The position numbers were made by a program, and so were the translations under genes. From assembly GCA_029204225.1 (NCBI GenBank), contig CM055101.1:40895427-40959426 (forward strand): DNA of 64,000 nucleotides. Direction: 5' to 3'. This document shows positions 11,281 to 54,200 of this stretch, piece after piece. The notes beneath the pieces are model-generated. The model ran no database searches. It saw only the letters and a program-made list of their open reading frames with translations, and was not told the DNA's origin. Within the stretch, counting starts at the first letter, position 1; every line of letters starts with the position of its first letter. The stretch is from Diphasiastrum complanatum. Taxonomy: Eukaryota > Streptophyta > Lycopodiopsida > Lycopodiales > Lycopodiaceae.

Positions 11281-11334
11281 AGGATTTAGAAAAATAGCCA
11301 AACACCCATGGTAATGACTTTCTAACACCTCACT

Positions 11335-25500: not shown

Positions 25501-27813
25501 AAGGATATCGATTCTGCAAATAAGCTGTTGTCCAAATAGCATGTTGCCAAAAGGATTTATGCAATGATGCATGAGTAATCATACATTGATTCGACTAAGG
25601 TTTTGTTCTTTCTCTTTGCAAGTCCATTGGACTGAGGAGAATAGGAAGCAGCTAATTGTTGTTCGATACCATTTGTCGAACAATACTCCTTGAATGCATT
25701 GAATATGTATTCACTACCATGTCGGTTCTAAGAGTTTTGATCTTTCTTCTTGTCTGCAGCTCAACATTCTCTTTATAAATTTTGTGCTTCATAAAATAAA
25801 CAGCAGCTCTTCTCAAATAATCGTCAATAAATGTAATAAAGAATTTAGCACCAAGTAAAGATGGTGTTTGCATTGGGCCACATATATCTGAATGAATTAT
25901 GTCTAACAGATATCTAGATACACGTCCTTGATTGAACTTGAAAGGCCTTCTAGTCTGCTTTCCTATGATACACAACTCTAGCAGACTAGAGAGTCAAAAG
26001 TTCAATAATCAAAATCAAGAACTAAAGAGTGTTTAGACATATTAGCAATAAATACATGATTCAAGTGCCCAAGTCTATAATGCCAAATTAATTTTTTATT
26101 GATCAAAACTGAGCTGCTTAAAGCGAGATCAGTCACATAATAGCAATGTGTAAGCCGATTCAGATATCCTTGCCTTTTCCAAGTACAAGGACTCTCTTCT
26201 CTTTATCGAGAATTTTACAAGAATTTGATCCGAATCTACCTTATGTCCTAAATAAGTGATTCTACTGACAGATAGCAGATTGGTTGCCATATTTGGAACA
26301 TACAATACTTTTGAAATGAGTTTGGATTGTCCATGTGGAGGATGAGGATGCACCTTCCTTCGACTCTCCTCCCGCAGCAGCATAGTTATGACTCTAGACA
26401 AAGAAAGTTTTGAGTGGGTCGAGGACGGCAGGCTAGACAATAAGGTCATGACAACACCCGAATCTTCGATGACTGACACTATTGTTGCCATTTGATCAAA
26501 CAGAGTCTTGAATTGATTGATGTGATTCTGAAAAAAATCACTTTCTAACATTGAGTGAGAAAAGTTTCTTCCTCGGATGCAGTTTCGAATTGACGTCCCT
26601 CACTTCGTAGAGTGGGCTCAAAATGTTCCAAGCTTCCTTACAAGATTGGGCTCGTCTGATGTGGCTAATTTGCGTCTGATATATTAACGGTGATTAAAGC
26701 GAAAGCCTTACCATCCCTGAGCTTCCATTTAGAAATGGCTTGCACATCGACACTAGGAAATAGTTCGACACCTACAACTATCTCCTTGGCCATTAGCATG
26801 ACTTTCATCTTGAATTTTCATAGATGGTAATTTGATCCATCGAGCTTGTCTACCATTAGACCAGACTTTGATTGAGAATCCATCAGGAAATTCGAGACAG
26901 GTATATGCAAATAGTAGATTGTATGACTTCTAAATAGTTTAGTGAATGCTCACTCTGTCGGAACAAGAAATGTTCTGATACTGTATGCTTTGATACCATG
27001 TTGGGAATTCGAATGGATGATGAAGTCCTTGATACATGAACTACGTCTATCAGATTCGTGCTATCTTCGATAATTCGATGATAGCTCTACTTGATCAAAG
27101 CTTCGAAGTCGCGAGGATCGAAACAATTGCTTCCGTAGACACATACAAATTCATTCAGTAGCGGAAACGTGTAAAACGGATCAGATAAAGAGCATTACAA
27201 TCAACATACACTATTAGTCATAAAACGATTCAATCTACAAATTGTTTACCTGCAAACCTCGACTTAGACGAAACAGAGAATGATGCAAGTGACACGACAC
27301 GATAATGCACAGTATGTACTTAAACGAATTCAATTAGTTTGAAAGAATGTACATGTCCAAATGCTTACAAACGTGTTAATAGATTCGACAATTGCCTTCA
27401 GCAATTGCCTTCGATGGTTGGCTTCGATTCAATAATTCACCATGCAGACGAATGTTAGCGATTCTCGAGTATTTCTACAAACTATTAGACAATCCCATGT
27501 ATTTCAGCAGACTGTCAAATAACCTTTGTATTTCTACAAACTGTGCGACTGTACAAGTAATTATATACAACAAATGAATGGATCTAGATTTGCTATAGGA
27601 TTAGGGAGAGAGAGGATAATAATCCAACAAATTGTACTGCACCATTTTGGTGCCTTGTGGCCCAAGATTATATGTATACATATTTTACCACATGTGTTAT
27701 CTACACAAAGACTATGTCTCAATGGGATGCCAAGGTTGTTCCTTGAAATTTGCTATGGTTCAATGTGGTTTGCTATGATTTGCGAGGATTCTTTATGATT
27801 TCGGATGGATTAA

Positions 27814-27855
<42 letters not shown>

Positions 27856-29243
27856 GGGGGGGGGGGGGGCAGAAGAGTTCATTAAGGTTCAATATGGTTG
27901 CTATGGTGCGTCGTCATTTCGGATAGGTTCATTATAGTTTGTTGTACTTCTAACTCAAACTTAACATTACGTTCAATCCACAATGGACGTTTCTAATGAA
28001 ATGCACACGATGGCTCTTAGGTTCAATCCACAATAAATGTTTCTTATGAAATGCACAAGATGGACCCATCTTGTGCATCTCGTTTGAAACATCCACTTCA
28101 CCCATGAAGTCACTTTTACTGCTAACAGTAGTTTTAGAATTTCCAACCAGCTTTAGAAGCCAAGGAAAACTTTGGCTGCCCAAAAGTCAAGGGTGGTGCA
28201 CCAGCCACCCAACACTTACAATCTCAACCAACAAAGGGAAAACAATCAAAGAAAACGACGCAGTGCTTTCCAGCGCATGACAAGTTGATGCACAGAGGAG
28301 GACAGAATTTCAGTAATCAACATCTGCTTTCCTCTTTCTAGGTATCATTGGTAAGTCTTAAAGATATTTAACAACACGTCCATTTGGTCGCCTACATGTG
28401 GTAATGCATTCAGATTGTGTTTCCACTGTGCCCAGTACGTGTGTACAAGTAACTAAGTATGCCAAAGTTTGTCATACCAGTATGCCACAGAGTAGCAGTT
28501 TGATAGAAATACATATGATCTTTAACGAATTTACAATCAAGAAATCTAGCTTGTTATATTCCAATTTTAAGCTTATCAGAGTTGTTTTAGTGTTTGGTAT
28601 ATTCGTTTTTTAGTTTTGTCGGGTCTTGTATAATGCTAGGAGGCAAAAAAAAATTTCATAATTAATGACCTGGCATCAGACGATAAGCATACTACGACTT
28701 CTGTAACACAGATTTGTGTTTGACAGCATAAATATTTGTTTCGGTGCACGTATTTTGCCAACTATGTCACACCAGTTCTCCTTGAAAGAAACTTATGGTT
28801 TTGGTAATTCATACTAAAAGCATGGCACTATTTGCAGCTACGTGATCCAAAAACAATCAAGCATTTCCCAGAGAAGCTAAACCTACTTGTGCTTATGCAT
28901 GTTTCCCCCCTGTAGTAAGAAAATAACTGATCCAGGAACCAAACCATTAGCAGACACGGAAAACACTTAGATGAAAGGTAAGCGCCCGGAGCGTACAGAG
29001 GCTTCGCCGATAATACACAAAAATCTGACATAACATTTGAAAAAACTGACACGACATTTGATTATGAAAAAGCAGCAAGGAGTCGGCATAAAATGCTCAC
29101 CAGTCAGCAGATAGACAGACAGATAAAATTTAGACTGCGATGACCAAAAATCAGGCAACCCTAACAAGAACAGCAACCAAAAAATTGTAGCTCTATTTTA
29201 AAAGCGGAAAAACGAGGCTCACCCCAGTGCCGATGCTGCTCAT
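16543..29243 (-). CDS. PAG1: 20S proteasome subunit alpha type-7 (PAG1-like), 11 exons
   Basis: Alpha subunit of the outer ring of the 20S proteasome core particle, cytosol and nucleus; it is structural and gates the barrel. Coding exons: 29243-29223, 22683-22601, 22402-22363, 21691-21608, 21337-21264, 20671-20585, 20488-20404, 18333-18287, 18148-18083, 17165-17075 and 16617-16543. They total 753 bases (250 aa plus stop), against about 249 aa for plant PAG1. All introns are GT-AG and phases agree at each junction. The protein starts MSSIGTG, has the alpha-type signature YDLSVTTFSPDGRVFQVEYA, LYWWLRPFG, GGYDRDGPQLYMIEP, HDEAKDKAFELEMSWICDE and ends ALEEDMDAD. No stop or frameshift was found, so the gene looks functional. 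Intron 1 (6.5 kb) and intron 7 (2.1 kb) contain copia elements. HAAMAMAGVAADGR and RPFGSAAILGG differ from the usual angiosperm residues at those places. Confidence 0.97.
18880..19740 (+). pseudogene. Ty1/copia integrase fragment inside intron 7 of PAG1
   Basis: Antisense to the host gene. It reads LYVPGPAKYLLSV (about 18902), then GAG-pre-integrase LWHERYGHLSYKSM (about 19180), then the integrase core LELTHSDLWGPTQT (about 19363), SGEYIAGKFVELC (about 19555) and IAEKQNRT (about 19650), through many stops. No LTRs recognised; protease, RT and RNase H are missing. Confidence 0.88.
23880..26986 (-). pseudogene. Ty1/copia gag-pol inside intron 1 of PAG1, broken
   Basis: Same strand as the host gene. 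Gag begins near 26890 (KLDGSNYH.*KFKMKVML, with a stop at the usual Trp) and runs to about 26380. A deletion joins gag to the pre-protease/linker region (KVLYVPNMATNLLSVSRITY, about 26300). Integrase pieces follow (LLDIIHSDICGPM about 25905, FITFIDDY about 25830, then 25582-25167). RT is reduced to its start (FWKETMDKEYNSLIKNNTWI, about 24780) and end (DLGLAHYCLEIQIHRDKQ, about 24705). RNase H-like sequence (DNQSAIALSMNPR) continues to about 23880. The 3' LTR is not found. A 210-bp insertion splits the integrase/RT linker. Confidence 0.92.
24951..25160. mobile_element. 210-bp GGTTCGAACC-word insertion with target duplication
   Basis: It interrupts the copia frame and is flanked by TTGCAG on both sides (24945-24950 and 25161-25166), which looks like a 6-bp target-site duplication. 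Both arms are arrays of GGTTCGAACC, CGGTTCAAACCGG and TTCGAATCGG words, which are self-complementary. The centre is A/T-homopolymer-rich. It has no coding capacity and no recognised family. Confidence 0.8.
26987..26998 (-). other. Copia primer binding site (initiator tRNA-Met)
   Basis: The minus strand reads TGGTATCAAAGC, one mismatch from the consensus TGGTATCAGAGC. It sits immediately inside the LTR end at 26999, about 95 bases before gag. Confidence 0.85.
26999..27572 (-). mobile_element. 5' LTR of the intron-1 copia element
   Basis: The plus strand begins TGTTGGGAATTC next to the primer site and a matching end, TACAACA, occurs at 27572, giving about 574 bases with TGTTG...CAACA termini. 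The inner edge is firm, the outer edge is a best guess. No second copy lies in the window. Confidence 0.7.
27819..27869. repeat. (GA)n followed by poly-G
   Basis: About 26 bases of GA repeats then about 25 G, inside intron 1 of PAG1. Long G runs are prone to length error in assembly. Confidence 0.95.
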
Positions 29244-29348
29244 GACTGCAACAAGAATAATGTAGTCCTTGATCGGAAACGAATCCAAAATCAAACTATC
29301 GATCGATCCAACAGCAGCAGAATACAAAGAGAAAAGAGAGAAGAAAGG

Positions 29349-29349
29349 G

Positions 29350-29391
<42 letters not shown>
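29349..29391 (-). promoter_or_regulatory. CT-rich tract in the presumed 5' leader/promoter of PAG1
   Basis: A GA repeat on the plus strand reads CTCTCT on the gene strand, 106-148 bases upstream of the ATG at 29243. Pyrimidine-rich patches near the transcription start are common in plant housekeeping genes. No clear TATA box was seen nearby. Confidence 0.55.
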
Positions 29392-29395
<4 letters not shown>

Positions 29396-29415
29396 TGTGG
29401 GGGAAGAAGCCTGGT

Positions 29416-29421
29416 CACGTG
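29416..29421. promoter_or_regulatory. G-box core CACGTG
   Basis: Palindromic CACGTG (within GGTCACGTGCTC), about 175 bases upstream of the PAG1 ATG. G-boxes bind bZIP/bHLH factors. Further out, GGCCCA occurs near 29573. Function is inferred from position only. Confidence 0.45.
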
Positions 29422-29459
29422 CTCGCCAAGACATGGCAATTTTCTATAGTAGAATGGTC

Positions 29460-30560
29460 ACTTTGTATATGTGCATGTAGGGGCCTCTAGGCTATGCTCT
29501 CTTGAATCACTCTCGCCATCAATGGAGCTTAGAGACATGCTCCACTCTCTTGAGTGAGAGACTTTTGCTTGGCCCAACGAATATTTGTAATGTGGTGAAT
29601 CTTCAAATTTCAATGGTTCAAATTCTCATTAATGATGTGCATGTTGTGTCTCTCATACCTTCCCAAAGCATGAACTCTGCTACATATGCGCAAGTATGAC
29701 CGCCAAGTTACGTCACACGTGTAAACTGATGGAAAGGCCCCTCCCCTCTGTGCATTTGGCTTCTGTTGTGTGCACATGTATATCCACTTTAATGAAAACT
29801 TTGTGCTGGTTTACGGGATTAAAAACCATTGCTTCACCATATCTCGCAAATATCCCAAATTGATGTGCTACTTAAGGAAATGTCAGTTTCCCTTTACATG
29901 CCTAGAAGATGTGAGGGCCCTCCACCATCCAAGGATGAGAAACCGAGGAAGCCAGAGGAAGGTTGATGGATGCTAAAGGTAGCTCGATCGAATGTTGGTA
30001 GCAAGTTGTAGCCTCCATATATGTCCTTAATGACACACGTTGGACATAGAACCCGTTATCTTCAACACAATGTGGTGCAAAGTCATTACGGGATATTAGA
30101 ACTCAAAATGGGCCCTTTGTCAAGATGTTGTTTTTGACTTCGCACGCTTTCAACGCTTATGTGTCCCAATGAATGGTGTCCATCTGTGACGAACTATAAC
30201 AGTGGTTGACGAATTGTATTTAACTTTCTCAGCCAAATTTTCGTGATTTTCAAATATCCCGAGGGGCAGAACAAACAATTGTGATTGGACCACAGTTACT
30301 ACCCGAATACTCTTATGTTGCCCGTCATTGTTCACTCGAGGCTGATTTGACATCAATAGTCATAAACTGTAATTAACTAATCCTTGTAGTTAAGGAACTT
30401 CTTGTCATTCATAGGCATACCTCTCATTTTCTTCATTCTATCTCTCATTTTCTTGTCATTCTTAGGTTTACCTCGCAATTACTACATTCTCTCCGATCTC
30501 AGCTTGCGTACTCGTATTTTCGACTAATGGCTACACATAATCGGAGACCAAGAGGGAACC
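29460..30560. other. Intergenic upstream of PAG1, no gene recognised
   Basis: No recognised coding region. A short direct repeat based on CTCTCATTTTCTT and GTCATTC.TAGG lies at about 30400-30475, just before gene A. Confidence 0.45.
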
Positions 30561-30562
30561 AT

Positions 30563-31860
30563 TGATGCAATCAATATTTGCAATGAAAAAAATGCAGAAG
30601 ATCAATGGATACCAAGAAGATATCGAAAATACCAATGGATCTTGATGCATTCCTCTGCAAAAGGCTCATTCCGAAAAAGAAAAAGATTGGATAACATCTA
30701 TAGAAGCTCTTGGAAAGGTAGGATAATGGATTTTAAAGTATCACCTGCCGGTCAATCTATCACGGAAGTTTTAGTTCAGCATGCTTATATTCACAATGAG
30801 CTCAACATTCATGATCTGAATCCAAATGATAGAAGGAAATGCAATTGTACGTTTTCAGATTCAATTTCTTTAGATTTAGCATTTTCTTTAAATTATATTT
30901 TTCATGAGATGTTTTTGTTGGTTTTGCAGATTTGTATCCATCAAATTTCGTTGAATGGCAATCAATTCAATCGATTGCAGGAATAATCGATGTCATACAT
31001 TCGGATATCGGTATTTTACAATATAAAGGTCGTTCTCCAAAATCACTTTTAGAGTCAGGCGTTTTTTTTTTATGATCACACCTATTTTCCTGATAAAAAT
31101 GGTTTAGTTGGTAGATTAGAGCCATATCCTCTACCAGATTTTTTGAACGAGGATGCAACAATTTCAGAAAGTTTTCGATCTAGGCTATATATTGATATTC
31201 AGAGTATATTAAAATGTAGCACTGGATCAAAGAATAATAGATTAAGTTGGTATCTACCTTTTACTATTTTTGTTGATTTCTTTTCCAAATGCAATGTTTG
31301 GCAAACGAAAACAATGTTTATTTATAAGGACTTGAGTGCTGATATAATCGCCGAGTTGTTGGATGATGGTTGGGATACAAAACAAAATCAGCAAGTTGAG
31401 TGCAGAGTATGTTACTCAATTATGACATTTAAATATCACATCAAAAAACAAATGCTCACTTTGCTGCTGTATTATAGAAGATGGATTAAATGCAAAAATG
31501 TTTGGAAGCCACTTGATCAAGATTTTGGTATAAACCCTCAAGAGCAACTTCAGATAACAGTGAAAAGAAATGACAACATTCTTGCAATGGTTGATGTCAA
31601 GGAAGATTGGTGTCTCAATCACATTCGATCAGAACTAGACATGTTGCAATTCGATCTACCTCAGTACTATCAATTTTTCAATGGTGTAAAGGTACGTTAG
31701 CCATATAAAAATATTCATTTTTTTCTATTTTTAAGTGAATCGGTTTCATAAAATATATAACTAAAACAATTTCTCTTGTGCAGGTAAGAGTAAGGCAGGA
31801 AGAGCATATAAATGCAAAGACATTAAAACATCCATCGAAATTGAAAATCCATAGATTATG
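30563..31860 (+). pseudogene. Gene A of the 10-kb cluster, unrecognised
   Basis: The frame can be followed from about 30563 (GTIDAINICNEKNAEDQW) through KGSFRKRKRLDNIYRSSWKG, then a GT-AG intron (about 30847-30930, ending TTTTGCAG), then NFVEWQSIQSIAGIIDV. A one-base shift falls in a T10 run near 31063. Then SRLYIDIQSILKCSTGS, SWYLPFTIFVDFFSKCNVW, DVKEDWCLNHIRSELDMLQF and, after a second intron (31693-31783, GTACGT...TGTGCAG), VRVRQEEHINAKTLKHPSKL and a stop at about 31858. That is about 370 residues. The C-terminal part has a ubiquitin-like pattern, a guess only. It converges with gene B. Intron boundaries that restore the frame show it was a real eukaryotic gene. No family recognised. Confidence 0.6.
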
Positions 31861-31959
31861 AACTATGGAATTTTGTATTATGTAATACAATTTTTTGTAT
31901 ACATCATTTTTGAAAATATATGAGCCACTTTTTCTATGAGGCTCTTTCATTTCTATGAT

Positions 31960-32072
31960 CTCCATTTCCATGGTGCAAAAGACAATGTAATTGTAACTGG
32001 ATAATATGAGTTTTCGATAGCAAGATTCATTGTCTCCTACAGGAAATGCACTATCTCCATTGGGGAGATCTT
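31960..32072 (-). pseudogene. Second, degenerate copy of the last exon of gene B
   Basis: Matches 32528-32671 in order: CTCCCCAATGGAGATA.TGCA, then GAGAC.AT.AA.CTTG. The translation keeps ISPMEIVHF and LAIENS but has a stop and a changed 3' half. It lies 0.46 kb downstream of the first copy, so it is either a duplicated terminal exon or a trace of a second gene copy. Confidence 0.6.
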
Positions 32073-32527
32073 CAGTCACTTGAACTCCAGTGATCACTAC
32101 AATCGACGCTTGCCCTTGTTGATGTCTCATATATATTGGTTGTATTTTTGGTCTTCATTGTCTTGGTCTGTATTGTCCTTGTCTTGGCATATTTGGATAT
32201 GTTCAGAAGATGAACTGATGAAAGCTTTGTTCTAACAAATCTAAGTTTGTCGCATGTTTGGATTGGTTGTGGCAAAGGTTCCATCAGATCATCTTTCTGA
32301 ACTTATCCAAAAAAAAACCATGGTAAAGGCAAGGCAAACCAAGGCTATGAAAAACAAACATGTCGAAAAACCGTAGAAGTTGATGATGAATGTATCATAA
32401 CCTGAATTAATAACAGGAAAAAAAAAAAAAGTAAGAACAACCATTGAAAAACTGTAAATATATTTCTATAAAAAATTTCTATACATGTGTCTCATCCACA
32501 TCAAGTGAGACGAATATTTAATCAGTA

Positions 32528-33670
32528 TCAACTATCTATGATCTCTAAATCCATTTCTCCAGTTGGAAGTAGCTTGGGTGGAGAACACTCGGCCACTGCA
32601 ATTGGATGTGAATTTTCAATCACAAGCTTTATGGTCTCTTGCCTGAAGTGCATTATCTCCATTGGGGAGACCTTCGGACATTTAAATTTGAAAAAAAACA
32701 TACACACAGTTAAATGTAATTATTCAAAGATCAGTTAATAGGAATTTGAATATGAAAAAAAGCAAAAACACAATTAAAAGTAATTAATTGAAGATTACCT
32801 CTTCCAGATTTGGAAGTCCATCTTGTAATGCAAGCCAATTAAAGAAGTGTTTGGCAATGCATACGGTATACCAACGACAGCTGATTGAATCAACCTGCTG
32901 GGAGGATTGCAAAAATCCAAATTTTAACATTATGAGATATCGGATCAAAGCGCAAGATGTAAGAATAAAATCTACAACGGAAACAAGTGCGTATCGAACC
33001 GATATAAAAAAAATTGATTGAATATCGGACCAGCGCGCACGTTATGATAATAATCCAATCAATAACTACAAGGGCGCGTCGAACCGATGTTGAAAAATTT
33101 ATACCTCTGCATCAACCATTTTCAGCTTCGAATATGCTTTTGCATTTGGTACTGGAAAGAGTTCCAGTATTTTCTGTATATGGGTCCTGGCAATTTTGTG
33201 TGTGTGTGTGTGTGTGTGTAATAGAGTTCATTTTTAAACAAACTGGATTACACACACCCTCATCATTGACGTACAAGGACAACACATATAAGCTCCAATG
33301 ATTACTGAAGAATCAATGTAAAATCAAAAAATTCAAGAAAATAAAATCTGAAAAAAAAAAGACACTTACTTTGTTATGTATGGCAGCACAAGAATTGGAG
33401 TATCCAGTCTGACGTATTGGAACATATCATTGTGCAGACTTTTAAAATCAGGAAAATCAAATGCAGCCATGAATTGAAGGGGAAACAATGCAACATCTAT
33501 AAACAATGGGGTCTGGAAGAACTCCATCCAGTACTGAATTGCCCCACCTCCTACATTGTCCCCTAGTTTCTAATTCACCTAGTATCTAAACTAGAAAGGG
33601 GGAGACCAGCATTGGTCTTTGGCATCCTAAAACTGTATCGAGGACCTAAACCTTTAAGATACGTGTTTAA
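32528..33670 (-). pseudogene. Gene B, downstream exons (continuation of the H3-like gene)
   Basis: Exon-like segments in order on the minus strand: from 33670 GLGPRYSFRMPKTNAGLPL, then GGGAIQYWMEFFQTPLF and MAAFDFPDFKSLHNDMFQYV to a donor GTAAGT at 33369. A short segment near 33175-33107 has uncertain frame. Exon 32894-32799 is 96 bases (VDSISCRWYTVC...LPNLEE) bounded by CAG and GTAATC. The last exon, 32671-32528, starts at an AG acceptor (VSPMEIMHFRQETIKLVIEN) and ends in TGA. The borders fit splicing, but stops near 33570-33590 show decay. No domain recognised. It is read as one gene with 33678-34518 because order, strand and splice phase fit; that join is inference. Confidence 0.55.
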
Positions 33671-33677
33671 CAATTGG

Positions 33678-34518
33678 TCATATTGTACATATTGAGGAGT
33701 ATTTACAAAGGCAAGTGCAGGGGGTGACGGAAGTAATACCTGATAAACCACATAAAGAATTGTCATTCAAAATTGAATCTACCTTTACACTAACAAAATC
33801 ATCTAAATCGCTTCCAAGAACAGGAGGAGAGGAACTAATATCTATAGGTTTAGGAAGAGGAGGAGATTTAGGAGGTGGAGAATTATTAGGAGAGGAAGAT
33901 TTAGCAGGAGAAGTTAAAGATGGAGTGAGAGGAGAAGAAGGAGACTTAGGAGGAGAATTATGAGGAGAATGCCTAGAAGAAAGAAGAGTATTCATAGGAG
34001 ATGGCTTGGAAAACTCCCTCGCTTTAAATAGACGGTCAAGAGACCTCCTCTTCTTTGAAACACTCCCGCTCTGGGTTGGATGAGATTGCTTTCATTTTTT
34101 TCTCTCTGAATCTTTTTTTGGAGGAGAGGAGGGAGCAGGTCTAAAGTGTTCAGCAAACTTGTCATATGTGTCCTGAAGCCTGAACACAATGTTGAAATCC
34201 TTGGGCATGATGGTCACCCTCTTGGCATGGATAGCTGCAACAACAATATCTGAAAAAAAATTCACCTGAAAATCCTCATATGTTGTGTACAGTGCCTCAA
34301 TTGCCATTACAGTCCATCTCACATCTAGATAGACTGCTAAGATTATTTGTCTTCTGAAGCTTCCAAATATCCTTGAGCCAGGGTGGGTCTCTTCTTTTGC
34401 CCCTTGGCCTAGGAGGTAGTGGTGGTGGATGAGGTGGTGGTTGTGGATTTTCCTGACCCGCACCTGAAATTGGTATTCCACCTGAATGCCCTCGTGCTGT
34501 CTGCTTGGTCAGCGCCAT
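33678..34518 (-). pseudogene. Gene B, histone H3-like N-terminus with Pro/Ser-rich extension
   Basis: The ATG at 34518 opens MALTKQTARGHSGG, which follows the histone H3 tail ARTKQTARKSTGG: K4, Q5, T6, A7, R8, G12 and G13 are kept, K9 is G. After a Pro-rich stretch comes LKDIWKLQKTNNL, matching H3 alpha-N LREIRKYQKSTDL. In the next frame DVRWTVMAIEAL... through AAIHAKRVTIMPKD aligns without gaps to H3 alpha-2, loop 2 and alpha-3; AIHAKRVTIMPKD is identical to H3. About 20 residues of H3 between alpha-N and alpha-2 are missing, with a frameshift there. A basic, Ser/Pro-rich tail follows (KKRRSLDRLFKAREF, then repeated SPP/NSPP). Histones normally end soon after alpha-3, so this extension is abnormal. 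It is probably a chromatin-acting protein of a mobile element, now broken. Confidence 0.8.
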
Positions 34519-35537
34519 TACTGTGAAGTAGCGGATCAGCACGCAATAATGTTGATTTTAGGATCAGACCTCAGGTTGGCCGCGTCGAAGCAATACCTGA
34601 GCTCAACAAATCCGTTAGCTGGTAGCAGATGGGCGCGAGCGAGTAGTAACGGATTGAAGGAAGTTGTTTTTGAGCGCGCTGAATCGATATCGCATGGATG
34701 CAAATAACTATAAGCAAAAAAATTTCAACGTCGTCGATCAGTATATATGGAAAAAATAAGAAATGATTGCAAACGTGGTGATTTGGATATCCGAGGTTCA
34801 GATTACGATGATGATTACCCATAGGCTTGTCAATCAAATCAATCTAAATATCCATCAATCATTAAAATGATTAGTCCATACAAGAAATAATTTCAAATAA
34901 AGAATGGTCACATCTACAATTAATGCTACAAAAGTATACTATCACACTTCTACCATTAAATGCTGAAATTGACAATGTTAAGCTTTAAATATCAGACCTT
35001 TTTTTATATCCAATAATTATAATTTTGAAAAATTCCGAAGGCCAGATTTTCACCTGATAGCTAATCAACGCGCATATAAAGCATTTGAAAACCAGAGTAT
35101 GTATTCTCATGCGCTCATCCGATATTGGACGGAATATGAATGATCAGAGCTTGATTTGATAGATTCTGCATAACTTTGGCCAGTATGAAGAGTCTTCCGA
35201 ATCAAGCTTTGATCATGCATATAGGGTCCAATAGTTTCAAAATTTTCAATAGTATTTTGGTCCTGGAATAGCGATTCGACGTGCGCAGTCCAAATGCAGT
35301 AAATACATCATCTGCCAAGCGCGCTGATCCGATATCTCATATGCAAAAAAATCATACTGGAACACATAATGAAAGACTTATGAAAATGTTCTGAATGAAC
35401 GTTATCTCAAAAGAAAAAAATTTGTCTTTACGGTGCTTAAATAGGATGAGAGATTGAAATAATTCTCCTCGTACATGTTTTTCAATGATATCCATTAATC
35501 ATTTGTTTATAATTTTTTTAATGATTATTCTAGAAGG

Positions 35538-35765
35538 CTAGTGATTGTCTATTTAATGTATTCCGACGTAGGTACATATTCTCGGGTCAGGGCTAATGAG
35601 GATTCATTGAATCTAGTGATAGACTAGTTAATGTATTCCGGCGTAGGTACAAATTTGTCTCACTCTGATTGGTGGATAAATATATTGAATCTAGTGATAG
35701 ACTAGTTAATGTATTCTGGCGTAGGTACAAATTTTTCTCACACTGATTGGTGGATAGATATAGGC
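35538..35765. repeat. Three tandem ~77-bp repeats
   Basis: CTAGTGAT recurs at 35538, 35613 and 35691, each followed by TTAATGTATTC.G.CGTAGGTAC; copies 2 and 3 also share CTGATTGGTGGATA. The array ends about 55 bases before the TATA box of gene C, as upstream promoter or terminal repeats would. Confidence 0.85.
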
Positions 35766-35820
35766 TGTAAATTTCAATTCATTATTTGACAAATGTATGG
35801 TTGTGATCAACAGGAATTGG

Positions 35821-35829
35821 CTATAAATA
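35821..35829 (+). promoter_or_regulatory. TATA box of gene C
   Basis: CTATAAATA, matching the plant consensus, 271 bases before the ATG at 36100 and downstream of the 77-bp repeats. Confidence 0.55.
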
Positions 35830-36099
35830 TGTGCACCACTTTCTATATTTCGATTCCGTGATCTTTTATTCTGAACTCTCTAGCCTTCTTGTTTTTTTTT
35901 TTTTCATTCTCGCGATATCGAATCGACGCGCGCCATCCCTTGTTGTGCATGCTCGTATTCATTCAGACGCGCTGAATCGATATCAGCCATCTCCGACAAC
36001 AACTTTTCAGAAAATTTCATTCTCAATCTCAGCGCGTGTACTTTACTTTATTCCTCTACCGATATTTATCTGTCGCGTTGAACCGATATCGGATTCAAT

Positions 36100-37579
36100 A
36101 TGGCTAGTTCTTCCATGGCCTCAGATGACAAACTTATGGATTTTTTTTAATGCCAGTGACATTCCATCTGACAAATTAGAGTATTTTGCTAGTATTTTTT
36201 TTTTAACCCTTCGATGTCGATAAGCTAGTTTATGATAATCGTTATAATTTAATTTCTTATCTTGATAATTTTTTTCAGATTATTAGTACTCATGTTTTGG
36301 ATATAGATAATTTCTGTTTCGTTCATTTTCAGGACCTTGTACATTCCCAACCATCCTGTAAGCATAAACACAATATATACTATGATATCCACAAAAGAAT
36401 ATGTCGCCTTCTAATCAAAGGAATGGCTTTTGTCTTCTACATATCTACTGAAATTTCAGATGATGAGTCTGTTGGATCTTCAACTGTTCCATTGATCGAA
36501 GCATCTGCACCTGCTCCAGTTGATGTAAATGATGCAGATATTGATATAGGGGTTGAAGCTGAAGCTACTATGGCTTCAGATTATAAAAAAATTCTTCCTC
36601 GTTCTATAATCCTCTCTGATTCTCTTCCATTTGCATCTCTGTCAATTAATTAACTCTACTCGATGTTCTTTTATATTTTATAAATAATGAATGTTATATT
36701 TCATATAATGATATAGAAGATGTATTGAATTTGAGAGAGGATGAAATCCTCTCAATTTTTGCTTAAAATTTATCAGAATTTTTTGACATTGTTGATTACT
36801 CATATGATGACCTTGAAAGTGAGATAGATTATGATAAAGATGGCAATTGGAAATCTGGCAATGAGACCTTGGAGGCCATGATTGAAAAATCTAAAGCCTA
36901 TAAAGAAACTTTGCCTACAGAGGGAGAATTTTTGGAATTTCAAAAATAATATTTCCCTAGGACTAGATATATCCCCTCCGGAAATGTAGAGGCCATTGGA
37001 GGACATGACATCAACAAAGCAAACGTCGTTGATTACGATGATTATGATCTGGTAAGTAGATATTATATTGGTATTGATATTGTTCAGTTTTCTTATTGAG
37101 TTTGCAGTGTTATGTAATTTATTTTCTTTTCTCATTTACAGGATGCTATTGAAATAGATGCCTTTGGTATGAGACATGGAGGCGTCCGAGGTGTATCAGC
37201 CGGGAGAAAAGATGTTTCTCTATCTCATTATTTGAAAAACTTTCAAAATAATGAGATTTGTATATATCATTCATCTTATAATCCATATGCAACCACTGTC
37301 ATTATGGCCATCAAATCATTATCAGTTTGTTTAGGAGGCCATAAGTACGCAAGAGGAACATATTAAATAATTTTTGTGAAGAGATATTTGGCTATTAAGA
37401 TATTGGGTTATACTCTTAATGAGACTACGAAAAGATTATCTGCAATGGCCCTTTATTCGAGTTACATTGATATGAGCAAGAGGAAAAATTTAGAATTTTT
37501 AGATCCATATGAAAGGAGATTATTCCTTCATGACAATACCATCCGTCTGAATCTTGAAGAGGATGATGATGATAATTAA
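36100..37579 (+). pseudogene. Gene C of the 10-kb cluster, unrecognised
   Basis: ATG at 36100 (MASSSMASDDKLMDFF), then frame changes in T-runs near 36145 and 36200. It continues DKLVYDNRYNLISYLDNFFQ, ICRLLIKGMAFVFYISTEIS, then an acidic region (DVNDADIDIGVEAEA), NLREDEILSIF, DYSYDDLESEIDYDKDGNW and a GT-AG intron (37049 to about 37140, GTAAGT...ATTTACAG). The last part has SAGRKDVSLSHYLKNFQNNE, YATTVIMAIKSLSVCLGG and KRYLAIKILGYTLNETTKRL, and ends in an acidic EEDDDDN at 37577. About 450 residues with stops near 36765, 36950 and 37367. No domain recognised; the acidic stretches suggest a nuclear or chromatin protein, weakly. It converges with gene D. Confidence 0.58.
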
Positions 37580-37608
37580 ATAATTTTCTGTAATAATTTT
37601 TTGATATA

Positions 37609-40264
37609 TTACAAGGATCTCTCTTTTGTAATGAATTTAAATGCCTTTTGAAATATCGTAATACTTGGCGAGTTTTTAGCTTGATATCTAAATTTTGCTC
37701 TTCTGTAAAACCACTGAAAAAGTTGAACTAAATATTTATTTCTTGAATTGTGTCCTCCATGATTTGTTGCTCTATGAAATGCTCCCCTTGCTTGCCAATG
37801 AGATTTTTCCATGTCTTGTGATGACCAGATACTTAAGCTCTCATATTCCTTTGCAAAATAAGTTGTATGATGAAGAAGGATGTGCTGCAAACAATAGTTT
37901 TGATTAGTTACATCAGTAGAAAAAAATATAAGCTTGAATGAGAATATTACCAGATAATGATATAGATTAGCACCATGTAATAAGTAACATTGTTTTTTCC
38001 CCAACAATCATGTACAAATTTTACAAATGTGGTGCAATGATTTTGCAAAGTCCTCATATCTTCTGATGATAGGTTTTCTTTCCTGATAACACCTATGAGT
38101 TTGTCTAAATTGGTCCACACTTGTCCTTTTTCCACGCGATTACTTCCTTCCAGTGTTCGTGTGGCTTGAACAATTTCTCTTCATATTTCATATCTGACAC
38201 TTGATTCTTTGCATGTGTGATTGGATAAGAATCTTCTTGCTTTAGCACCTCCAATTGATGGCTTATTAGGAACGTTTCCTTTTTTTCCGGAGAGTCTGTC
38301 ACTTTTTTCAATCGTGACATTCCCTTTATGTAGTCTTGCATTTGACAGAACTATATCCAACCTCCTAATTGCTACTTTAGCCACTGACTCTAATTTATGA
38401 TTCCATGCTAGTAGAATATGCAAGTAAATTAGTTTTACAATAATACGAACCTCAGCATGCAATGTGCATATGTGAACATATTTCAATGGAATTGGCAGAA
38501 CACTTTTCATATTTGGATCTTTAGCTTCTCGTGTTGGGCCGGTGTTTGTTGATCATCCCAAATTCATATTGTAACAATCCTTCATGCAATAAAGACATGG
38601 ATGCTTTGATGTTGCCCCATGAGAGACATTATACATACATTTTAATGTTTTCAAATCCCCTACAAGGTGCCATTGAACTTAAAAACTTCCATGGTTTTCG
38701 ATTGTAAATTTCTCACCCTCCAAATGTCTCTTTATAATCTCGCCATAATTTGTCCTTGAAAATATCCATGATAGTATTTTATGGTCCTCTTTCAAGACTT
38801 GTAGAAAAACAAGTAATGCATAACATGTCAATAAAAACTGGCAAGGTATGAATTGTTAATATAGATATTCTAAATGAAAATGGAAATGTATATCTGGAAT
38901 GCCACCAACCACCATATGTGATTTTTCGATTGAACACTAAACGTTCGATCATCTGTATCTGAAATTTTGTTCATCAAAGTGACACTCACACGTTCCAACT
39001 TCTGACCCTTGATGATTTCAGATTCATCCAATTTTATTACAATAATGATCTTTCCATTTACTTGATGTTCGTCTAGTTTATAGAATCAAATAATGTATTT
39101 TAGAACATTTTCAATATCAAGGAAAATATTATTGCAATCGTTGTAATTGAGCTCACAATATTCTGATTTATATAATTCAGTTATATGAAGTGGTTGGCCA
39201 ACTACTTTGAACATTCCGTCATTATAAAAATTCTAGCTAATCTTACTCGATATGGACGCGGAAGATTAATTTTCTTCACCATCACTTGGGAAAAAACTTT
39301 TTTAACTATTCTAAAAAAATAGAATAAGCATTTCTGTTAATTCCAGATAATTACATGCACCTTGTATCACATTCGCATCCAAGTATAATTGAACCTTAAT
39401 CAAAACAGTCTCTACAATTTCATTTTTCATTTTTTCAAACTGAGCATTTTTTATCATTTCCTTTGCTGACTTTCTTGGTAAAACATGACTTAAAGATGAT
39501 CCAATGCATGAACGATCTGTTAAATAGTTTTTTGCCACCAAACATGATCTGCAGCAAACATATGAAACTCAAATTATGTTTAATAAATAAATAATCCATG
39601 TTATCAGTGCAAATCAAACCTAAATGACATATACAAATCAAATAAACAGTCTAGATGACAACATACTTGAATGTTCGAATTCTTTTTTTCTGTGTGTAGA
39701 TAGGTCATCAATATTCTTCATCAGTACTCTCTTTCTTTTCCTCTTCATCATTGTGTTATTGATAACTTTTAGATCAACATCAGACTTTAAACTCTCGGAT
39801 CGCAACTTTTCCATGGATTCTAATATTTCTTGGTTTGATTCTCAAAGAGTAGTGATAGTAGCATTCAACTCTGACATAGCATTCTTGAGTGCATTGTTTT
39901 CAGCACTAGTGTGTTGCACATAATGAAGCAATTGTTGATTTGCACGTTGTAATTGTTGATTCAGACAATATATGCTATGCATTCCAATATCATGCAACTT
40001 TTGACAATATCCAAATAATCCGCTATTTCCTTCACATACATATCTGAGAAGATGAGTTACGGACTTAAAATCTGGACACAAATTGGTAGCTGGATCATTA
40101 GGATAAATTGATCCATCCACCCACAAATCTATATTCATATGATCATTCATTCTCAATTCTCTAACTATTGCTGCAGCATTCTCTAAAACTTTTGCATTTT
40201 TCTTAATAATTGGAGTGCATTCAACATGCAAATGGAACATTGCCATTGTTAAAGCTACAATCAT
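37609..40264 (-). pseudogene. Gene D, transposase-like protein
   Basis: Read from 40264: MIVALTMAMFHLHVE..., a Q/N-rich coiled coil (LNQQLQRANQQLLHYVQ), a basic patch (MKRKRKRVLMKNIDD), intron (GTATGT...GCTGCAG), ATVLIKVQ-type helices near 39400, then IIIVIKLDESEIIKGQKL (about 39040), then WHLVGDLKTLKCM followed by GATSKHPCLYCMKDC (38675-38580), then LPIPLKYVHICTLHAEVRII (about 38500), then RTLQNHCTTFVKFVHDCW (about 38050), and finally SSQDMEKSHWQARGAFHRAT and LFQWFYRR (about 37850-37690). Ordered acids (D in LDES, D in GDLK, E in MEKSH) with C-x2-C after the second resemble RNase H-fold transposases, and the layout recalls transposase-like proteins known from animals; the assignment is inference. 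Several stops. Confidence 0.62.
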
Positions 40265-41426
<1,162 letters not shown>

Positions 41427-41819
41427 AATCTTTCACTTATTTATGTTGAATATCGAATCGATAAATGTATGGCAATCATAGACACCTAAAATTTCACATT
41501 CATCACAATTGTCATAGACGCCTATAATAATACTCAACTAAATTAAATTGAATGATATCAACAAATTAGCAAGATTAAGTTTGTTAGAATTGTGAAAATA
41601 GTCCTAGGTATAATTATATCAATTCTTTCTTCTTGGGCGGCAAACAATTTTCAGGTTCAAGCTTGTCAAAAAGCTAGATCTCTATTGAGAATCGGGCTTC
41701 CTCTCCTGAATAGTAGCATCAAAGCCACAAGTTCATTTGTTCAATATACATTCTTAGATTCAATCCTTAGAGATTCTTGTTTGTTTACATTCTTTTATAT
41801 CATTCTATCATCCATTGAA

Positions 41820-42350
41820 GGTTCATCGTATGAGATTTGTTTGATCAATAAATTCAACGGTGATGACTTTCACATGTGGAAGTTCAAGATGAGGATGATC
41901 TTGATTGAGAAATATTTGTGGGAATATGCCAATGGCACAGCCAAACTAGAGAATTCAAAATTGTTGACCAATTGGAATGCAAAAGATGGTAAAATATATA
42001 ATAAGATTATCAAATAGCCCATATGGTTACTTGTTCCACTTTAAAAATAAGCTATACTAATTGACATGTATGAACAAATTTAACTACTTGTCTCTTTTTT
42101 AGAAAGAAGTTCCCAGCTTTGAAAATGAGTAAAGGCACTTCAGTAGGTGATCACTTTAATAGTTTTATACAATTGTTAAATCAACTAGGGGCTATTGATG
42201 TTCCAGTATCAGATGATTATGTCATTATGACACTTTTGTCTAGTCTTTTTACTTCTTATGAAAATTCAATACTATTTTTGGACAATACTCTTATCACTCC
42301 AAAAGGTGGCAACAAGTTTGTTACATGACTAAATAAGAAGGAAGAGTTCA
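41820..42350 (+). pseudogene. Ty1/copia gag fragment
   Basis: Reads INKFNGDDFHMWKFKMRMIL (from about 41843), then a shift, then KMSKGTSVGDHFNSFIQLLN and VIMTLLSSLFTSYENSI. This is the UBN2-type core of copia Gag. It stops before a zinc knuckle, and no LTR is seen beside it. Confidence 0.85.
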
Positions 42351-42359
42351 TTTTCTTCA

Positions 42360-43335
42360 AATAACAAGACTCTTGTTGTCATGTCCACGTCCTGTATATA
42401 GGATTTAGTATAGTCCTAGACTTGGATACACGGTACTCTAATGAAACAAGCTTATTATTTATGCCACGTCATACTGGACGTGACTCGAAAGTAATTAATA
42501 TCCTTGTGAGGCCCAAAACACACTAAATGGAGTTAGTACAAGGGTTGGGACCATATGTGCATGTGTAGAGTATCAATTGTCATAAATAGGTGAGTAATAG
42601 AATGCAAAAACTTCCTACTTCCAATGCATGACTACGCCTATCAAAAGCAGTAGTGATAGAAATCATGTTCAATCTTTAGCAACTAACTCTCGCTAGATAC
42701 TAAGTGATTACGTAGCCAAACATAAAGTATTGAATTCTCAGACAATTTCTATCAGTTACAAAGGCAATATAGAGATGCATGCATTATGACACAAACTGAA
42801 TGCAATAAGAAAATAGTATTGATTCAGAAAAACAAGATCATATGCTAATGAGCGCAAGACAATAGCAGATAGAAACCACGCACTCTAAATCTATCTCTGA
42901 GTAACTGAGAATAAGTCTGAAATAAGCAACTCTACTGATAGCAGTAGCGCAATAGCAACTCTAAATAAATATCTAAAAGACTGAGCTAGATTGCTCAAGA
43001 GAGTTCAAGCTTGAAAGCTTGATAGAGAGTTAACAACAATACTTTCTGATTGTAAACGATCTGCGTGATGAGAGCGTAGGAAGCGTTGTGTAATAACACT
43101 CAACTCCTTCACAATTCACAATGTTGATTGATCATTGACTTATTGAAAATGAGATGTATGAAAAACTGATTTGTACTAAGTAATTAGGTCATCAAATGTG
43201 ATTGCCAGTTGGCTAGAGTCCGCTGGCATTCATCTAGTTCTTCTCAAAAGTTGCTTGCTAATAAGCGGCGACAATTGCCCGTAAACAGTTTGTCTGCATA
43301 AATGAAGACCCTATAATAGAATGGTAAGGATACTC
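42360..43335. other. Unassigned, no gene recognised
   Basis: AT-rich, with many short direct AGCAAC/AATAGCA words near 42840-42980. No credible coding region. Confidence 0.4.
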
Positions 43336-43339
43336 ACGC

Positions 43340-43610
43340 ATCTGCTCCTTCTCTTGAATTGTTTGAGGACACTTGTCTTTTGACAATTTGAGACATGGTT
43401 CCATTGTGAGAGAGCTAACTTGCAATTAATCGGATTATATCTGATTAACATATTGTAGATGTACCTCTATTGAGTAATGTAGATCAACTTTCTATTTCTG
43501 TCTCTGTGGATTTGAATACCAAGGCAGAAATGAGCTTCGCCTAGATCGGTCATGTCAAATTCAGAAGATAGCATTGTCTTGTCTTCTTTTATCAGATTGG
43601 TATTGTTGTT
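43340..43610 (-). pseudogene. Ty1/copia reverse transcriptase fragment
   Basis: The minus strand reads EFDMTDLGEAHFCLGIQIHR (about 43560) and YIYNMLIRYNPINCK, the end of copia RT. It is similar to the matching segment of the intron-1 element (24724-24530). No other domain is present. Confidence 0.82.
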
Positions 43611-43611
43611 G

Positions 43612-45236
43612 AAACGACAACATTCTTTGAACTAAACAAAAGTGGTGATTCGAAGGCTCAAGAGTTGTTGTACCATGACTTGCTGATGCAGTATTGATAC
43701 AACAGCGATACCATTTCTATGAGTCAGGTTTTGGTAGACAAATATGTTCTTGACGTGGAGTCGGACATGCAGACAGCTAGAAAGTCATTGGTGAGTTTTG
43801 GGTTTAGGGTCCTCGATGTCGATTTTGATTCATCTCCATTGTTTCGCGAGGAGATGTTTGTCGACAAGAACCCTTCAGAGGTTGAAGTTGACATTGAGAG
43901 ATTGAACGTGGATTAGCGAAAGATTTTCGACCGTGTAGTACGTGAGCATGTTGTTCGAAGAGTGGGTGGAGGTAGATGGACCGGGTGGTATAGGCAAGAC
44001 ACACTTGTATGGTGTCATGTTGTCATACGTGCATGCACAAGGGTAGAAAGCATTGGCAATTGCATCACGTGGGATTGTTGCACTATTGATGAAAGGTGGT
44101 AGGACCGCACATTCTTGGTTTAAAATTCCTCTGACGGAATCGAATGAGAGCTCGACATGCAACATCTCTAAGCAATTTGCGCTAGGTACGCTTTTGATGG
44201 CATGTCGACTCATCATTTGGGATGAGGCTCCCATGGCGCCTAAGTATACTATAGAGTGTGTGGACCGATCTCTGCGAGATATATTGAGTATCGATGCTCC
44301 ATTTGGAGGAGTTCCAGTTGTTTTCGGGGGTGATTTCCGATAGATTCTACCAATGTACTACGTGTTAGTCGTGCGTAGATTGTCAATGCTTCACTGAAGT
44401 GTTTGCGTTTGTGAAAAAACATGGAGGTGCACAAACTAACAAAGAACATGCACGTCATGGGTGTGGAGGGTGGCGATAAGGATGTTGAGGTTTGTAGATT
44501 ATTTGTTGAGTGTGGGAGATGGTCGTGAGCCCACATTCGTGCATCGCGATTTGGACCTGATCATGTGCCTAAGGACGTCTGATGTGGACGAATTGATTTC
44601 ATTCACATTTTTCAATGTTGCATGGCGTTTTATGAGATCATGCGAGGGTTGTTGAGCAGCTTCTGTGACGTTTGCACTTTTTATAGTGTCGATAGTGTTG
44701 TTGAGTGTGAGGGCTCTAATGTGCACCCTGTAGAGTATTTGAATAGCCTGCAACCGAGTGGATGTCCTCCATATAAGTTGGTGTTGAAGTTTGGAATGAT
44801 TGTGATGTTGTTACAATCGATAGCATCGCACAAGGGATTGTGCAATGGCACAAGATTGATCATCCTTAGATTAGGTAGACTGGTCATAGAGGCGGAGATA
44901 GTGATCGGAAAGAATATAGGAAGTAGAGTCCTTATTTCATGTATCCCTATAGTGCCAAGTGATTCGAACATATTGTTTGAATTGCAAAGGTGTCCAGTTT
45001 CCTATCAGAGCAACATTTGCCATGACAATAAACAAAGTACATGGGCAAACTATGGACATGATTGGATTGTATTTGCCTCGGCCTGTATTTAGCCATGGGT
45101 AGTTGTATGTTGCACTATCGAGAGTGCAAAATGCAACAAGTCTTCGTGTGTTGATTACTGACAAGGACAATCTATTTACGGATGTGGATGGACTGACGAG
45201 GTACACTCAGAACATGGTGTATTCAGGAGTGTTGTA
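43612..45236 (+). pseudogene. Helitron Rep/Hel protein, helicase part, broken
   Basis: PIF1-family helicase domain of a Helitron rolling-circle transposon. Reads FFELNKSGDSKAQELL (pre-helicase), RKIFDRVV, Walker A GPGGIGKTHLYGV (43978-44016), then ALLMKGGRTAHSWFKIPL, Walker B LIIWDEAPMA (about 44210), VVFGGDFR (44323), KNMEVHKLTKNMHVMGVEGG (about 44418), VHPVEYLNSLQPSGCPPYKL, LCNGTRLIIL and, near the end, remnants of [29 protein letters not shown] and YTQNMVYSGVLQW. Many shifts and stops. The HUH Rep domain is absent upstream. The end near 45236 is where the 3' terminus should follow; no clear hairpin plus CTRR was found. Confidence 0.92.
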
Positions 45237-51217: not shown

Positions 51218-54200
51218 ATGGCTACAACAATCCAGACAAGAGAAGCAATCAGTCTTGATGGCAAAAATTACAGGATCTGGAAATTCAAAATCAAAACACT
51301 TCTGAAGGGCGAAGGCATCTGGTCAATGACTGAACTTTCAGAGGTGCAGCCTCCAGAGGGAGACCCGAGGAGAGCTGAATGGATAAAAAAAGATGAGCGC
51401 ATTATGGCGATCATTGTTTCGTCCATAAATGAAGATCTACTCATGTAGATTGAAGACTGAGAAAGCAGCCATGCAGCGTGGGAAAGATTAAAGCAGAAGT
51501 ATGAAGCGAGGACTGCAACTTTAGTCATGCACCTTCACAATCAGCTACAATTCATACGATGGGATGAGAACCAATTAGATCAGCACGTTGAAAATATCAG
51601 AATGATCTTCGCTCAACTCAATGCATCAGGACAAGAGCACCAGGTCCCAGCACCAAAGCAGCTGATGTACTTCATGAAATCTCTACCGACATCCTATCAA
51701 CCGCTGAGAATGCTCATACTTAGTCTACCAGATATGACATTCGACAAAGCAGTTAGTCTTGTCGCTGATGAGAAACTAATGAGAGACGAAGGAGAGAGAA
51801 GTAGTGATCAAGAGAAGGCTCTCTTCATGAAAGGAAAGAAGAAGAACAAAAACAAGCCAAGATTCGAGAAGATGAAGTCCTCAAATCAACAATCTTCTTC
51901 CTGCGATCACTATCACAAACCAGGCCATACGGCCAACAAATACTGGTTCAACCCAGCAATACCTTGCATGCACTGCAAAAAGAAAGGGTATTCTGCATAC
52001 GACTGCAGATTCAACCCAAAAAGAAAAAACAAAGCTGAAAAGGCAAACATTGCAGAGTCATCAAAGGATGCTGAAAGAGGTGACGAAGCTTTCACGATAC
52101 TCGACGAAGCTTCGACAAGCTACTCTGAACATGAGTACGATGTAGTCATCGATTCAAGAGCAACATCTCACATAACCTGCAACAAGAAGATCTTGATAAA
52201 CTTTCGCGAAAAAGAAAATGACAGAGCAGTCATTCTAGGCGATGGAAGCAGACACGATGTCAAAGACATCGGCTCTCTATAGCTACGGACACTATTAGGC
52301 CAAGAAGAGCTGCCATGAGCACTTTAACATTGAAAGAGCATACTTGGATTGACATACAAAAGCTTTATCTTTAAGAAAGTCAAATCTCTAATCCTAGACT
52401 CTATGTGCCTTCACTCAGAAAGGATCTGCTATCTGTCTCCAAGATGGCATATCTAGACATTCGAGGTTTGTTCGACGACAACACTTGCCGTATGCTCGAG
52501 AAGACGACAAACAAGTTGCTGACGGTCGGATGCAAAGAAGGAAATCTCTACCAAGCCAAAATAATCAGCAACTCTGAAAGCATATAAAATGCTTCAGAAA
52601 ACGAAGATCAGCTCTAGCATAGAAGAATGTATCATCTGAACATGCGGAGCCTGTATGACATGAGCAGAAAGGACATTGTCACAGGTCTCAAGATTTCAAG
52701 GCCAGAGGCTGAGTTCTGTGAAGCTTGTCATAAAGGCAAGCAACATCGGAATCCATTCACACACGAGGGAAGAAGAGCCAAAGAAGTTCTTGAGCTTGTC
52801 CACTCTGATGTGTGTGGACCGATGAAAACATATTCACTCTGGTTCGAGATATTTTCTAACGTTCATAGATGATTACAACCGAATGACCACGATCTACTAC
52901 TTGAAGAAGAAATCCGAAGTATTTGATTCTTTTAAGAAGTTTGTGGCATTCGCAGAGCAACACACCTCGAAAAAGATACAGATCCTTAGATTTGACAATG
53001 GAGGTGACTACAAAAGCATAGAATTCTCAAGATTCTGCAAAGAATAGGGGATCGAACACCAGTTCACTCCTGCATACACACCAGAATACAACGGTGTGGC
53101 AGAAAGAAAAAACAGAATGCTAGTCGAAGGAGCTAGATGCATGATGGCATAGGCTCAATTGCCAGGTCAATTCTGGGCCGAGACAATAGCTGCAGCTGTA
53201 CACCTACAAAACAGATCTACAATGACAGCGCTGGAGAACAAAACACCATACGAAATGTGGACAGGCAGAAAGCCTGATCTGTCATACGTACAAGTGTTTG
53301 GATGTGCAGCATACAAGCACATTCCAAAGGAAAAGATAAGCAAGCTCGATAACAAATCCGAACAAACAATCATGGTCGGCTACTCAAATGGAACACATGT
53401 GTACAGACTCTACGATCCAACCACGAAGAAGGTTGTTTCGAGTAGAGATGTGAAGTACGACACATTCCCTGGACTGAAAGACAAAAAAAGCCATGAGATC
53501 TTCACACTGCTATCTATTCAAGAGAGATATCGAGGACATACATCAAATCAGAATGCAGAGCCCCAGATTCCAGAGCAGCAGGAAGCAGAGAATCGACCTT
53601 ACAAACAAGAAATGTTTGAGCAGTGACAAAACGAACCTCGAAGGTCAACAAGACAAAGAAGAGCTCCAGACCGCTATTCTGACAATCTTCAATGGAGTGA
53701 AGACACGTAGTTCAAGTACAGAAGCTTCACAGAAGAGCCAACAACATACCAAGAAGCTATCTAGAGTCTAGAGGGATAATTCTTGAAGCAGACAATGTCA
53801 GAGGAGATTGAGTCGATGAGGCAAAACGAGGCATGGACATTAGAGCCACTGTCAGAAAACAGAAAAATAGTCGACTGCAAGTGGGTGTACAAGAAAAAGC
53901 TAAAATCAAATGGCACTATTGGCCGCTACAAGGCAAGGCTTGTCGCAAAGGGCTACACGTAGAGATATGGTGTCGACTATTTCGACACATATTTGTCCAT
54001 GGTGAAGATGACAAACATAAGGTTACTCCTTGCATATGCCACATAGTACAATCTGGAAGTTCACCAGATTGACGTGAAAGCAGCCTTTCTCCATGGAGAC
54101 CTAGAGGAGGAAATCTTCATGAAGCAACTTGAAGGCTATGAAGACCTCGACAACAAACAATATGTCTGTCAATTACAGAGATGCATCTAGGGTCTAAAAC

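Follow-up and report, generated by a model that had tools for sequence, protein, structure and literature searches.

The 64,000-nucleotide stretch of Diphasiastrum complanatum DNA analysed here (the window) holds a dead copy of a DNA transposon with terminal inverted repeats and four conserved genes: a transposase-like gene, orfC, a gene for a histone H3-like protein (H3L), and orfA. Their positions are collected in the table below. Elsewhere in the window, three frames resemble gag/pol of Copia-type LTR retrotransposons by eye (242-1806 on the minus strand, 4532-8040 and 51461-54805 on the plus strand), and 11000-11624 covers the edge of another high-copy repeat, of which 39 scored copies (92-96%) stop near 11618-11638.

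Table. Features of the transposon copy, in window coordinates
Feature	Position	Strand	Basis or remark
Whole transposon, 10,589 bp	30084..40672		edges common to other copies; several copies similar throughout 30940-40500
Left terminal inverted repeat, CATTACGGG...	30084..30118	+	alignment with reverse complement of right end
orfA, first conserved piece	30528..30983	+	47% identical over 106 aa to L022 7123-7605, E 2e-39; no Pfam match
orfA, second conserved piece	31053..31697	+	42% identical over 211 aa to L018 2881-3549, E 1e-53; no Pfam match
Probable further H3L exon	32787..33041	-	60% identical over 30 aa to L024 3698-3868, E 3e-7
H3L C-terminal part, ends LPYITK, before splice-donor-like GTAAGT	33369..33569	-	read by eye
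H3L Pro/Ser extension	33678..33995	-	window translation; present in sister copies; dN/dS 1.08 within W
H3L alpha-2, alpha-3 and start of extension, other frame	34092..34481	-	PF00125, E 2e-9; window translation contains DVRWTVMAIEALYTTYEDFQVNFFSDIVVAAIHAKRVTIMPKDF
H3L tail (MALTKQTAR), Pro-rich linker, alpha-N	34297..34518	-	in-frame in sister copies; window frame 34542-34297 reads MALTKQTARGHSGG...WLKDIWKLQKTNNL
orfC, piece 1	36767..36946	+	E 9e-10 to L013 8067-8357
orfC, piece 2	37118..37363	+	E 1e-15 to L011 3796-4275 and L025 3740-4270
Transposase-like gene, in pieces	37612..40288	-	matches to sub-families A, B and C, down to E 1e-49
Pieces of transposase-like gene	39845-40288, 39314-39568, 38873-39085 (first D), 38682-38855, 38184-38552 (H(4)H), 37950-38180, 37612-38007 (E)	-
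Right terminal inverted repeat	40637..40672	-	alignment with left end

A preliminary description of this DNA had placed an H3-like gene on the minus strand at 33678-34518, and such a gene is present there, in pieces. When these were searched against histone families, as had been suggested, only the piece with alpha-2 and alpha-3 matched, to the Pfam Histone profile PF00125 (E 2e-9, 38.2 bits against a cut-off of 26.4 bits, profile positions 71-121); Pfam scans of the first piece alone (81 aa) and of the Pro/Ser piece (105 aa) gave no match. Comparison with 20 sister copies revealed frame-breaking deletions between alpha-N and alpha-2, which is why the pieces lie in different frames. The window copy of H3L and its transposon are decayed and dead, with broken frames, and single-sequence AlphaFold prediction for two window pieces, with no alignment, gave uninformative models (pLDDT 43). 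The Pro/Ser extension that had been described is real, but the end of the gene had been set too early: a further C-terminal part continues to a stop codon at 33366-33368, which overlaps the splice-donor-like GTAAGT. By eye, the LPYITK end of this part is similar to the PYHTK end of frames at loci L024, L018 and L028.

The edges of the element recur in its other copies. In a DNA search with window 26500-31500, 38 of the 39 other full-score copies start at window 30076-30093, i.e., within 18 bp, and the remaining one starts at 30232, 148 bp further in. With window 40000-44500, all 38 dispersed copies stop at 40661-40682, within 21 bp, and one local 99% duplicate continues past the right end of the element. 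Some 10 kb beyond the window end, at C10:40969427-40973867, lies a 99% copy of the right flank (window 40038-44500), a recent local duplication. The shared edges agree with the earlier proposal that H3L is borne by a mobile element, and the transposase-like neighbour gene sits inside the same element. The terminal inverted repeats are about 35 bp long and run CATTA..TAATG (CATTACGGGATATTAGAACTCAAAATGGGCCCTTT versus CATTAGGGAAAAATATGGGCTCAAAATGGGCTCTTT); the ends of other sub-families read CATTAGGGCCCTTTTTGGACTCAAAAAGGGCC, with GGCCCTTTTT and AAAAAGGGCC making a palindrome (predicted hairpin energy -12.7).

The genome searched was a 1.74-Gb assembly of 5,176 contigs. A 32-mer from the element end has 1,694 sites in it at up to 2 mismatches (control, 0), and a 41-base alpha-3 segment of the window-type H3L has 650 at up to 3 mismatches (reversed-pattern control, 0); these site counts are not exact copy numbers, and unplaced contigs may repeat loci (e.g., C1784 and C5). 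Because 650 sites stand against none for the control, the H3L of the window is more than a chance resemblance. The host is photosynthetic, as its genome contains 37 rows of the chlorophyll-a/b-binding family. Small non-autonomous elements with the same ends occur at L018 141-1315, there also with long internal inverted repeats, and at L021 1084-2173, and at G000:C17:3599242-3604375 units of about 580 bp of a non-autonomous CATTA element lie head to tail, as if becoming a satellite.

The conserved genes were found by comparing the stop-to-stop frames of diverged sub-families of the element. In the transposase-like gene, a pattern of D, D, C(2)C, H(4)H, and E was read by eye in sub-family A and partially in B, C, and the window type, W. 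The first two residues lie in KLDE and in DLKTL, the latter missing from the window pieces; the C(2)C motif appears as CIYC or CLYC, the H(4)H motif as HFCTMH, HICTLH, or HVCTVH, and MEKSH contains the E. Searches with the transposase pieces yielded no convincing Pfam, NCBIfam, or PDB match, and a search for relatives in viral contigs yielded four pattern matches, none of them confirmed. For orfA and orfC, database searches including Pfam revealed no convincing known relatives and no reader domain. A BAH-like reading of orfA, made by eye only, found no support in profile searches, and a weak TnsA-like_N match to orfA of L022 (E 0.0048, below the cut-off) was set aside. By eye, orfC (L025 2736-3704) resembles the C-terminal part of H3L. 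Between A (L025) and W (window), the block of orfC and H3L differs in orientation relative to the transposase, as if it had been inverted once.

We searched the host genome with PF00125, scoring a sample of 150 of 6,325 candidates. Canonical host H3 accounts for at least 13 rows at 163.7-165 bits, and the eight of these 13 that were fetched encode the same H3 but for one K/R exchange. Below canonical H3 lie rows at about 95-110 bits and three at 83-84 bits; 20 of the lower rows were fetched with 10 kb each, and H3-like frames were present in all 20. H3L occurs in four diverged sub-families with a readable tail (A, B, C, and W), in addition to L013 (D), which has the fold and no visible tail. 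Sub-family A consists of MARTKQTARDPRV, a linker of about 300 aa, and the fold at the C-terminus; B and C begin with MDRRKQTRRDFF and MARTESTARATT, respectively, each followed by the fold and an extension; and W has MARTKQTARGHSGG, a Pro-rich linker, the fold, the Pro/Ser extension, and the C-terminal part.

The core histone fold of H3 type seen in the window piece is shared by these relatives: PF00125 matches A, B, and C with E values of 7e-29, 4e-28, and 3e-26, and the best PDB matches are H3 chains. From alpha-N to alpha-3, H3L can be aligned with host H3 almost without gaps at 40-56% identity (40% for the window-type fold), and the folds of A, B, and W are 33-52% identical to one another. 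Of the 20 W sister copies, three (L033, L035, and L036) have an unbroken frame over all of the sequence fetched, tail included, and 17 do not. Relatives with open frames carry the extension; the alignment of L035 with H3 chains begins at residue 1 and extends to about residue 132, through alpha-3 (best E 6e-19), and L035 keeps the Pro/Ser stretch. The neighbouring genes accompany H3L as well. Among the 20 H3L loci sampled, 14 hold the transposase, 17 orfC, and 14 orfA; 19 hold one or more of the three, L024 being the sole locus lacking a companion. As 14 of the 20 belong to sub-family A, the loci amount to fewer than 20 independent cases, and some neighbours could be part of nested elements. 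In both extension and neighbouring genes, the relatives thus escape the refutation foreseen in the preliminary description. The element-end motif was seen in 10 of the 20.

In a tree of 92 columns, 11 H3L rows fall on one side of a branch from the H3 and CenH3 rows (support 95/92). This tree, which left out L036 as the twelfth H3L row and had four reference rows entered by hand, allows a single origin of H3L but does not place that origin. A CenH3 identity was considered and rejected: its loop 1 is not lengthened by an insertion of the CENP-A or Cse4 kind, and its tail is H3-like, not unrelated.

The first eight residues of H3 are kept in H3L. That the tail retains K4 and has lost K9 was borne out across mapped copies, with K4 present in every mapped copy of W (21) and A (13) and K9 absent from all 34. 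Three of the four readable sub-family tails have K4, sub-family C having E instead, and none of the four has K9; R2 and R8 often differ in W tails. The ARKS segment with K27 is absent from all four tails (translations, read by eye), and of the full H3 set of K4, K9, and K27 the H3L tail has K4 only.

Pooled dN/dS values with codon bootstrap were calculated for 13 copies of A, leaving out L019 as a near copy of L015, and for 21 copies of W including the window; neutral decay after insertion raises these ratios. For the fold we obtained 0.41 (0.25-0.72) in A and 0.59 (0.40-0.86) in W, and five W copies with long frames gave 0.68 (0.39-1.23). The W Pro/Ser part is unconstrained at 1.08 (0.76-1.62), so that the extension singled out in the preliminary description is present and yet the least constrained part, while the fold is constrained. 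The conserved parts of H3L, as judged by these ratios, are the fold and probably also the further C-terminal part (0.58 in W, with an interval of 0.35-1.02). The W tail with linker shows no significant constraint (0.91, 0.53-1.75), and the tail alone shows none in W (0.78) or A (0.83); the better argument for the tail is the survival of KQT(A)R in A, B, and W despite fold identities of 33-52%. The element-borne H3L has very probably been under selection in the past, and on sequence comparison it presents itself as a long-kept gene of the element group, not as a stray host pseudogene.

Inspection of the flanks revealed an unusual mode of insertion. At ten independent insertion sites, the flanks match over 0 bp in six cases, over 2 bp in two, and over 1 bp and 5 bp in one case each; these sites comprise nine flank pairs less three duplicates, together with L018, L021, the window, and one C2 copy, L077/L078 having been dropped as not a pair. 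Among five full-length copies, both predicted ends are in place in the C2 copy only. Queries made of a 120-base join of the two flanks found empty sites for two of the ten, the joined flanks occurring without the element in at least 17 and at least 23 rows at 98-100% over 119-125 bases; for the other eight there was no such row among the matches listed. A third empty site is provided by the small element in L021, which interrupts a transposase gene that is uninterrupted in L018, with no alignment gap at the junction. At all three empty sites, the inserted DNA is precisely the element, with no base added besides it. The expected target-site duplication (TSD) of 2-8 bp is ruled out by the flank comparison of the ten sites and the exact empty sites, and no target preference is visible in the ten sets of flanks. 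For an inverted-repeat element whose transposase is DDE-like, exact insertion that leaves no target duplication is unusual, and this can be tested directly.

Plants silence transposons with H3K9me2 and H3K27me1. The composition of H3L suggests how an element might respond to this: H3L made by the element would pair with host H4 via its conserved fold and would then replace H3 on element DNA, or hold the transposition complex on chromatin, and its C-terminal part and the companion proteins may bring it to element DNA or to the transposase. Silencing methylation at H3K9/K27 would not be possible on nucleosomes built with H3L, since it has neither K9 nor the K27 segment. Some chromatin role for H3L is somewhat more likely than not, and we lean slightly towards one in the life cycle of the element itself. 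The specific model of an anti-silencing nucleosome is tentative, and the odds are clearly against it. We would be a little more sceptical still of the full proposal, namely a CATTA plant transposon group without TSD that has its own H3 variant as a core gene, with K4-bearing nucleosomes that lack K9 and K27, resist silencing, and stay open to the transposase, a self-supplied chromatin state. The interpretation in the preliminary description, an element-borne H3 variant that might enter nucleosomes or imitate the H3K4 mark to steer integration or silencing, is partly supported.

Other explanations were weighed as well. RAG2, the partner of RAG1, reads H3K4me3, and the transposase pattern of the element recalls the RAG1/Transib clade; this analogy makes a transposition role a close rival. 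The tail would then serve as a ligand resembling H3K4, by which the transposase complex is guided or activated or integration is steered, with no nucleosomes involved, in keeping with a tail whose start is kept, along with the fold, and whose remainder is lost. The missing reader domain in orfA and orfC, sub-family C with its tail devoid of K4, and the ten sites with no target preference all speak against such a subunit, and we consider it improbable. The H3-like tail and fold would also suit a decoy, free H3L tying up host H3 chaperones or H3-modifying enzymes; a conserved C-terminal part would not be needed for this, and we regard it as quite unlikely.

An ordinary host H3 gene or processed pseudogene might be suspected from a sequence that is H3-like and broken in the window, but the sister copies refute it: the extension and the element are common to hundreds of copies, window-type folds are only 40% identical to host H3, and canonical H3 is a separate set. 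This reading has scarcely any probability left. A host H3 gene could instead have been taken up by a DNA transposon as a passenger and amplified without function; such captures are in print for fungal hAT elements (PMC3538342, PMC6710886), and most sampled window-type copies are broken. A passenger would, however, need to have been kept through the divergence of sub-families whose transposases are only about 50-67% identical, and the H3L fold is constrained, so that we think it unlikely.

The element belongs to a transposon group that is abundant and apparently undescribed, the comparison having been made by literature description, without Lanisha, and the search in the host genome alone. In the open-access literature on H3-carrying transposons and TSD-less elements, with Repbase Reports outside this scope, none was recognised as this element. 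Three things appear to be new: the host is of plant type, the kind of transposon is apparently undescribed, and H3L has long been kept as a gene of the element. In print, the fungal cases are captured genes, whereas the H3-like protein of this photosynthetic genome seems to be encoded by a gene that has lasted in a successful element. Should H3L enter nucleosomes, the mobile element would supply a nucleosome component of its own, and a natural H3 without K9 and K27 would be at hand for asking how plants silence transposons.

The closest cargo is found in hAT transposons of Dothideomycetes, described as carrying an H3-like gene between inverted repeats in tens or hundreds of copies (PMC3538342, PMC6710886). 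These genes are presented there as captures, with copies nearly identical or inactivated by RIP, and the elements of PMC6710886 have an 8-bp TSD. Both systems are thus amplified DNA transposons with an H3-like gene between inverted repeats; the fungal ones have a hAT transposase and the 8-bp TSD, whereas here there is no hAT match and no TSD, and H3L exists in several diverged sub-families. We rejected a hAT capture as in fungi, given no hAT Pfam match among the scanned proteins and no 8-bp TSD.

The transposase points elsewhere. As described in PMC12730594, the CMCT clade comprises CACTA/EnSpm, Mirage, Chapaev, Transib/RAG1, Plavaka, ESTA, and Lanisha, with a D, D, C(2)C, H(3-4)H, E pattern, 5'-CA..TG-3' termini, and a TSD of 2-5 bp. 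The H3L element shares the pattern, with H(4)H, and the CA..TG termini; it differs from that description in its 0-bp TSD, the lack of a profile match, and its companions H3L, orfA, and orfC. Because there is no profile match and the TSD is different, we call the transposase CMCT-like and do not file it in the clade. Insertion without TSD is described for the Spy group of PHIS transposons, which prefer AAATTT (PMC4482050). The H3L element likewise has no TSD; the AAATTT preference is not shown by the ten sites here, and the termini and gene set differ.

Transposons with genes against silencing are already known, and epigenetic cargo is described for VANDAL elements with anti-silencing proteins, HarbingerS with a SET domain, and TET/JBP elements (PMC12730594). 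Like the H3L element, these carry a gene that may counter host silencing; their cargo, as described, consists of enzymes or DNA binders, whereas the cargo here is a histone.
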